Below are positions 60,367-61,327 of a stretch of DNA of 64,000 nucleotides, piece by piece. The notes under the pieces were generated by a model. That model searched no databases, was not told the DNA's origin, and was given only the letters and a program-made list of their open reading frames with translations. The stretch comes from Halorubrum salinarum. GTDB taxonomy: Archaea; Halobacteriota; Halobacteria; Halobacteriales; Haloferacaceae. Numbering within the stretch: position 1 is the first letter of the stretch; every line of letters begins with the position of its first letter. The DNA is taken from the NCBI RefSeq assembly GCF_013267195.1, contig NZ_CP053941.1, positions 930,001-994,000 on the forward strand, given 5' to 3'. The translations under genes were made by a program, and so were the position numbers.

Positions 60367-60625
60367 GCGGTCGGCGCGTGCCTGCGAGGTCGCCTTGCGG
60401 CCGAGCAGCACGCGCGAGGGAGTCAGTCGCCCGGAGCAACGCGGAGGGCGACTGACGAGGCTGGGGAGGCGTGAGGTGCCGTGCGGTTGCGGTGGGGAGG
60501 AGTCGAAGGGGCAGCCGCGAGGCGGCCGCAGACGAAGTAAGCACCGTAGGGAGCGAGTGAAACGAGCGACCGAGGAGCGCAGCGAGTGTGCGGCCGCCTC
60601 GCGGCTGGGGCTTCGGGGGCGTCAA
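60367..60625 (+). repeat. structured dispersed repeat, copy A (sense to the upstream small membrane gene)
   Basis: About 259 bases, starting about 10 bases after the stop of the 84-residue gene. A hairpin CAGTCGCC/GGCGACTG pairs 60424-60431 with 60447-60454. A long-range stem of 18 perfect pairs joins AGCCGCGAGGCGGCCGCA (60513-60530) with its complement at 60589-60606. The inter-arm region contains GTAAGCACCG (60537-60546). Copy B at 61076-61327 is homologous in inverted orientation. The short frames in it are not considered genes. Confidence 0.85.
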
Positions 60626-60695
60626 CAGTAGCTACACGGTCAGCCGCTCACAAGAAGACGGTATAAACGCGAGACCGCTTCTCACGGTAATCGTG

Positions 60696-60992
60696 TCAAT
60701 CCTCGGCCCAGTAGTACAGCTCCTCGCGGGGCGCGTCGCAGCTCGGGCAGTTCGCGGGGAGCTGGTCGCCGATCTCGCCCATCTCGCCGCACTCCCAGCA
60801 GCGCCACATCACGTACGCGGTGCCGAACACGTCGCGCGCGTCGGTGAGCGTCAGTGTGTCCGTGCCCGACGGCGACGCGACGTAGAAGCCGTCGTCGTCG
60901 ACCCCGCGGATCGAGCCGAGCCGCTCCCCGTCCTCGTTGTACACCGCCTGTCCGATGCTCACGTCGGCGAATACGGGTTCTTCGGAGGCCAT
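60696..60992 (-). CDS. rubredoxin-like zinc-ribbon protein (DUF7130-like)
   Basis: A 98-residue protein. The first half is a beta-rich domain (DVSIGQAVYNEDGERLGSIRGVDDDGFYVASPSG), the second a zinc/iron ribbon with WRCWECGEMGEIGD and CPSCDAPREELYYWAED, two CxxC pairs as in rubredoxin-like knuckles. From memory it belongs to a haloarchaeal DUF7130 rubredoxin-like family; role unknown, possibly redox or metal-linked. The ATG at 60992 is chosen because of the TATA box 24 bases upstream; a longer frame goes on to 61064 without support. Confidence 0.85.
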   Translation of the reverse strand: MASEEPVFADVSIGQAVYNEDGERLGSIRGVDDDGFYVASPSGTDTLTLTDARDVFGTAYVMWRCWECGEMGEIGDQLPANCPSCDAPREELYYWAED

Positions 60993-61010
60993 ACGCGACC
61001 GTACGTGTTT

Positions 61011-61020
61011 ATCACTTATA
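61011..61020 (-). promoter_or_regulatory. TATA box of the rubredoxin-like gene
   Basis: The minus strand reads TATAAGTGAT, centred about 24 bases before the ATG at 60992, consistent with a leaderless mRNA. Confidence 0.6.
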
Positions 61021-61075
61021 ATTGTGACAGTGAGTGGCACGACACAGGCGGAGTGTTCGGCCACGGATCTGCGGC

Positions 61076-61327
61076 CAACACCGCCAAAGCCCCAGCCGGG
61101 AGGACTCGCGCGGCTTGTTGCGCTCCTCGTTACTCGCTCCGCTCGTTCCTGCGGTGCTTACTGCGCCGTGCTTCGTCCTCCCGACTGCCCCTTTGAGTCC
61201 CGCCCCGCACAGCACCGCGGCCTCACGCCTCCCCAGCCTCGTCAGTCGCCGTCGCTCCGCTCGGCGACTGACTCCCTCGCGCGCGCTGCTCGGCCGCGGT
61301 GCGGCCTCGCAGGCGCGCGCCACCGCC
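61076..61327 (-). repeat. structured dispersed repeat, copy B (sense to the upstream radical SAM gene)
   Basis: Inverted homologue of copy A. On the minus strand it begins about 55 bases after the stop of the radical SAM gene. The conserved hairpin is GTCAGTCGCC/GGCGACTGAC (61241-61250 with 61263-61272). The long-range stem pairs AGCCGGGAGGAC (61094-61105) with GTCCTCCCGACT (61175-61186): 12 pairs including one G-U-type pair, with bases that differ from copy A's stem yet still pair. GTAAGCACCG is conserved between the arms. Confidence 0.85.

Follow-up and report, generated by a model that had tools for sequence, protein, structure and literature searches.

The two inverted repeats, copies A and B, that flank the rubredoxin-like gene of Halorubrum salinarum in the 64,000-nucleotide stretch analyzed here (the window) belong to a real, class-wide, structure-conserving mobile repeat family. 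We consider it likely that both derive from a non-autonomous mobile element that was dispersed by transposition and whose copies diverged in sequence while the fold was kept; this likelihood covers the mobile behavior of the family and the RNA-fold explanation jointly. The sequence drifts but an RNA-like fold persists, which points to selection on the fold itself. The original prediction of a dispersed haloarchaeal structured element with selection on pairing was borne out by the copy number, by the presence of the element in all 51 congeners sampled, by a class-wide core, and by covariation; mobility did not form part of that prediction.

Copy A, at full length, occupies 60367–60622 on the plus strand and consists of two 5′ domains (P1 and P2), a linker, the conserved core (P3), and the 3′ end GGGGCTTCGGGGGCGT. 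Copy B, also full length, lies inverted at 61078–61326 on the minus strand. A repeat search confirmed that the two are homologous in inverted orientation, with 59-nt arms that are 90% complementary, 33-nt arms that are 97% complementary, and 45-nt arms that are 71% complementary. In copy A, hairpin P1 (60374–60415, plus strand) is closed by the outer arms GCGCGTGC (60374–60381) and GCACGCGC (60408–60415), and its inner arms covary. Hairpin P2 (60422–60456, plus strand) pairs GTCAGTCGCCC (60422–60432) with GGGCGACTGAC (60446–60456) and is followed by the G-rich linker CGAGGCTGGGGAGGCGTGAGG (60456–60476, plus strand), which is nearly invariant, as seen in the invariant alignment columns. The class-wide core of this copy (60495–60615, plus strand) has an outer CGAAG/CTTCG pairing (60504–60508 with 60611–60615), a GGG/GGG internal loop, a long stem, and the internal loop strands GACGAAGTAAGCACCG and GAGGAGCGCAGCGAG, all on the same strand. 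The long stem (60513–60530 with 60589–60606) forms 18 perfect pairs, as had been claimed. Copy B, on the minus strand, has the corresponding parts: hairpin P1 at 61279–61320 (arms 61279–61286 and 61313–61320), hairpin P2 at 61241–61272 (arms 61241–61250 and 61263–61272), and the core stem at 61085–61195 (arms 61085–61105 and 61175–61195). Its arm pair 61094–61105/61175–61186 forms 12 pairs, one of them G-U, again in agreement with the earlier description. Compared with dinucleotide shuffles, the folding energy has a z-score of −4.9 for A and −3.5 for B, and none of 200 shuffles folded as well.

The check for further copies returned at least 60 intergenic copies in the H. salinarum genome, A and B included. 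With A as the query, blastn hit the 2.94-Mb chromosome 44 times, at about 42 sites and mostly with 73–83% identity. The 3′ end GGGGCTTTGGCGGTGT was matched 60 times with at most two mismatches, against two matches for the reversed pattern. Almost every one of these hits marks either another copy, in many cases shortened by internal deletions or enlarged by added hairpins, or one of the tandem repeats of the 3′ tail (57 bp), many carrying TTTATAAA. All classified copies in this genome lie between predicted genes, none inside one. Beyond the genus, weaker relatives of the full element were found in other families of the same order, and a covariance model of the ~120-nt core detected it in 124 of 145 sampled haloarchaeal genomes and in 50 of 58 genera. 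A scan of GTDB genomes with the core pattern gave at least 120 stretches, all haloarchaeal among the matches listed, in genera that include Haloarcula, Natrinema, Halonotius, Natronococcus, Haladaptatus, Haloterrigena, and many more. In a phylum-wide sample, the core covariance model was positive in 28 genomes, all of this order, with none outside it among the matches listed. Thirty-six haloarchaeal plasmids also matched, by the core stretch only among the matches listed. The exact core pattern was present in 0 of 2.9 million viral contigs, and phage records held no match to the element. In genomes with few copies, these adjoin unrelated genes, which speaks against a conserved ancestral locus.

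Several copies show further peculiarities. The tandem repeats of the 3′ tail have a unit of 57 bp in Halorubrum and of about 45–50 bp in Haloarcula, and always run in the orientation of the element where seen (loci L009, L012, and L040 of this genome, L082 and L106 of congeners, and L208 of Haloarcula rara). The 57-bp tail had no credible match in phages, and the 58-bp promoter repeats of halovirus HF2, considered as a counterpart of the tail unit with its TATA, proved to have a different sequence. Extra perfect hairpins such as GCCGGCGGCTTCGCCGCCGGC sit at the variable loops in L049, L051, L047, L056, L110, and L117, possibly representing a second, very small hairpin repeat. In one copy (L118), expansion of the G-rich linker has produced about ten decamers in tandem (GTGCGGGTCA/GTACGGGTCG). 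The hypothetical protein annotated as Halar_0093 (L121, CP002989.1, 2587–3120, minus strand) lies antisense across a copy of the element and is probably a spurious gene call.

The conserved unit of the family is the ~120-nt core, which reads GGGYGGGACTSAAAGGGGC, the first arm of the stem, GACGYAAGSACYGCAG, a variable hairpin, CGAGGASCGCAGCGAG, the second arm, and GGGGCTTTS; in Halorubrum, two more hairpins and the G-rich linker precede it. Pairing was followed in two alignments, A1 with 90 full-length copies and the three-hairpin structure, and A2 with 77 cores from many genera. In A1, 92.9% of the cells are paired and 44 of 65 pairs have double changes, with 593 double-change cells, compared with 167 ± 13 after shuffling and at most 86 in slid controls. 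The values for A2 are similar: 92.3% of the cells are paired, 21 of 31 pairs have double changes, and there are 437 double-change cells against 152 ± 11 shuffled and at most 129 in slid controls. Covariation is beyond chance in both A1 and the class-wide A2, and neither of two refuting outcomes named beforehand, an absence of other copies or of covariation, came about. Since A2 was gathered by an exact pattern, its columns 24–38 and 64–74 are conserved by construction; columns 117–118, 124, and 149–151, which are unpaired and outside the search pattern, are nevertheless at least 99% conserved. G-U is more frequent than A-C: in A1 by 156 cells to 77 and, counted by pair, by 26 to 11 (p 0.02), and in A2 by 72 cells to 38. 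This excess counts related sequences, and its nominal p-value of 2.5e-7 is a guide only, not a true probability. In a DNA hairpin the two would be expected at roughly the same frequency, so the excess favors pairing in the sense-strand RNA. Judged from the alignments, pairing appears to matter at the RNA level on the sense strand.

The evidence for mobility comes from the rubredoxin-like locus of congeners and from other related genomes. When this orthologous locus was compared across 30 congeners, A and B proved to be in place in some and missing, truncated, or reversed in others; a clean empty site could not be recovered, as the intergenic sequence of the congeners is too diverged. At one of these loci (L100 in genome G003, compare 60696–61010 of the window), the rubredoxin-like gene is flipped relative to its conserved neighbors, a change that recombination between inverted copies of the element would be expected to produce. 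In the metagenome-assembled genomes (MAGs) QH_7_66_36 and QS_9_67_17 and in Halonotius, elements with 15-bp inverted ends GGTNGTGTTCAGMTA carry the core, and single-core elements with these ends measure ~218 bp. Terminal inverted repeats (TIRs) were found in G116, G117, and G118, and GGTNGTGTTCAGMTA occurs 98 and 131 times in two related MAG genomes, compared to 0–1 times for the reversed pattern. Target duplications of 8 bp are present in these relatives, exact in L194, L234, and L260, seen by eye in L185, and matching at seven of eight positions in L226, L243, and L245. Together, the 15-bp TIRs and the duplications indicate that the core moves, or moved, as MITE-like cargo. At least one type of MITE-like element thus carries the core, in the lineages that have both features.

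No autonomous partner was recognized: the 1.7-kb GGTNGTGTTCAGMTA TIR pairs in G116 enclose no recognizable transposase, none of the loci examined has a TIR pair that encloses a transposase, and an IS1595-type transposase is absent from three carrier genomes. A pattern scan never found the GGTNGTGTTCAGMTA TIR in the genome of the window, and a systematic offset scan of the Halorubrum copies gave no target duplication and returned only TTTATAAA, which often flanks these copies, on a single side or on both, near −14 and +25. Class-wide, 33 of 107 cores are arranged as head-to-head inverted pairs with a spacer of 24–35 nt.

The explanation that we favor builds on the observed copy number, dispersal, insertion polymorphism, and covariation, and on the ends and target duplications of the relatives. 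The core would be mobilized in trans, in a MITE-like manner, by a putative DDE-type transposase, and the element would be transcribed mainly by read-through from neighboring genes. The folded sense-strand RNA would then be at work, which is most likely why the fold is kept. Such an RNA might bind a protein or serve in processing, and might thereby render insertions tolerable or useful, although this function is a guess. Some function at the RNA level would be plausible. We hold only tentatively the broader proposal that this is a class-wide functional RNA family, spread as cargo of short transposable elements, whose ~120-nt core would be selected wherever it lands.

The compensating arms could also belong to a purely selfish palindromic DNA repeat, in which template switching (quasi-palindrome correction) or conversion between copies, and not selection on an RNA, changes both arms. 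Over all pairs, double changes exceed tolerated one-sided ones by 34736 to 9658, so that template switching or conversion may contribute, and the head-to-head pairs and many hairpin inserts show that palindromic DNA is readily made. However, non-complementary internal loops are conserved in mid-stem: a GGG/GGG loop and, within GSACC/GGASC, an A.A mismatch. Copying of one arm from the other would remove them, so their conservation counts against a selfish palindrome and against template switching or conversion as the whole explanation. The conserved A2 columns that the search pattern did not fix and the roughly two-to-one excess of G-U over A-C point the same way, as do the closest copies, where most double changes involve isolated pairs dispersed along the helices, with moderate clustering (188 adjacent doubles, 100 expected). 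We regard a purely selfish repeat as improbable. A family of autonomous small-RNA genes, individually driven by TATA promoters and spread by recombination, seems to us less probable again. Of the 88 Halorubrum copies, 36 do have a TATA-like motif in the 30 nt upstream, usually between −15 and −12, with a background of 0, and a metatranscriptome contains 22 conserved intergenic RNAs of Halobacteria with no explained function, which are candidates for comparison only (PMC7002113). Outside the genus, however, such a motif was found in the 80 nt upstream of 1 of 107 cores, which is the background rate; a T5 tract downstream was likewise found in 1 of 107. In addition, the haloarchaeal TATA box lies at −26 (PMC8707807), so the Halorubrum box would put the start inside the P1 stem, and TTTATAAA of the same kind also stands downstream, at ~+25, in 40 of the 88 copies.

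The gene context bears on the proposal that A and B form a 3′-UTR or small-RNA element in the sense of a gene. Both do start past the stop of a same-sense gene, by 10 or 55 bases, and convergent spaces are frequent in this genome (of 59 copies, 20 lie in convergent, 28 in tandem, and 10 in divergent spaces). This arrangement does not hold for the family, since the upstream gene is sense for 31 and antisense for 27 of the same 59 copies. The 48 cores placed in other genera occupy 5 convergent, 26 tandem, and 17 divergent spaces, and the same site is empty or holds the opposite orientation in congeners. Contexts this mixed make the position inconsistent with a cis element of one gene, and the proposal was not upheld in either set of genomes. 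A cis-acting 3′-end or regulatory element of the adjacent gene is in our view very unlikely, being contradicted as a general role, although single copies could act in this way. We give the least credence of all to an origin as a PATE, that is, a terminal remnant of an IS200/IS605 transposon moved by TnpA, perhaps an omega-RNA derivative. The Halorubrum copies would fit such a remnant in their subterminal hairpins and in having neither TIR nor target duplication, and the type is abundant in Haloquadratum (PMC3119063). Against it, the element is found at the ends of none of the 4 TnpA and 13 TnpB loci of this genome, one of which has an unrelated copy nearby, and the relatives have TIRs with 8-bp duplications. 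As the ends of the TnpA and TnpB loci do not match, a PATE or omega-RNA origin was rejected for this genome.

If the fold acts as RNA, as in the explanation that we favor, most haloarchaea would have a large unannotated set of related intergenic RNA modules, possibly a class-wide regulatory or processing layer missed by standard annotation. Should the RNA indeed be the cargo, many genomes would contain a single RNA fold several dozen times over, at dispersed sites. If the repeat is only selfish, it would be an unusually ancient structure-conserving mobile repeat, a driver of local rearrangement such as the inversion in G003, and a test case for template switching that mimics RNA covariation. 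Either way, the covariance model and the list of carrier loci make the question testable.

The earlier description could not name a known family. This agrees with Rfam, where no credible match was found by gathering score or at E-values up to 10. Separately, the edge of one locus sequence (L062, 3256–3294, plus strand) has a partial match to the leuA-Halobacteria RNA. A literature search, with most subscription papers beyond reach, gave no description of the family either. As far as the material searched shows, the element family is previously undescribed. Among known systems, the REP/BIME-type extragenic palindromic repeats of bacteria are dispersed intergenic palindromic units that form inverted pairs. 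Our element resembles them, by description only, in being dispersed, intergenic, palindromic, and present in inverted pairs, but it is longer (115–260 nt), is found in haloarchaea only, and conserves its internal loops. MITEs, including the haloarchaeal ones of Haloquadratum (PMC3119063), are likewise short, non-coding, and present in many intergenic copies, and the likeness is closest in the related genomes with the 15-bp TIR and the 8-bp target duplication. Unlike MITEs, the element has a class-wide multi-loop fold with covariation and no parent transposon was found for it; its Halorubrum copies, those of the window included, showed neither TIR nor target duplication when these were looked for. 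In Halorubrum, the element also resembles the PATEs and SMRs of Haloquadratum (PMC3119063): its copies have no TIR or target duplication, carry palindromic hairpins near their ends, and include terminal-only derivatives and hairpin inserts. It differs from them in that its ends are not common to IS605-type elements and its core is conserved across 50 genera. The transposon-derived regulatory RNAs of Sulfolobus (PMC3674436), which belong to another phylum and act antisense, offer a precedent for archaeal mobile elements that yield functional RNA.
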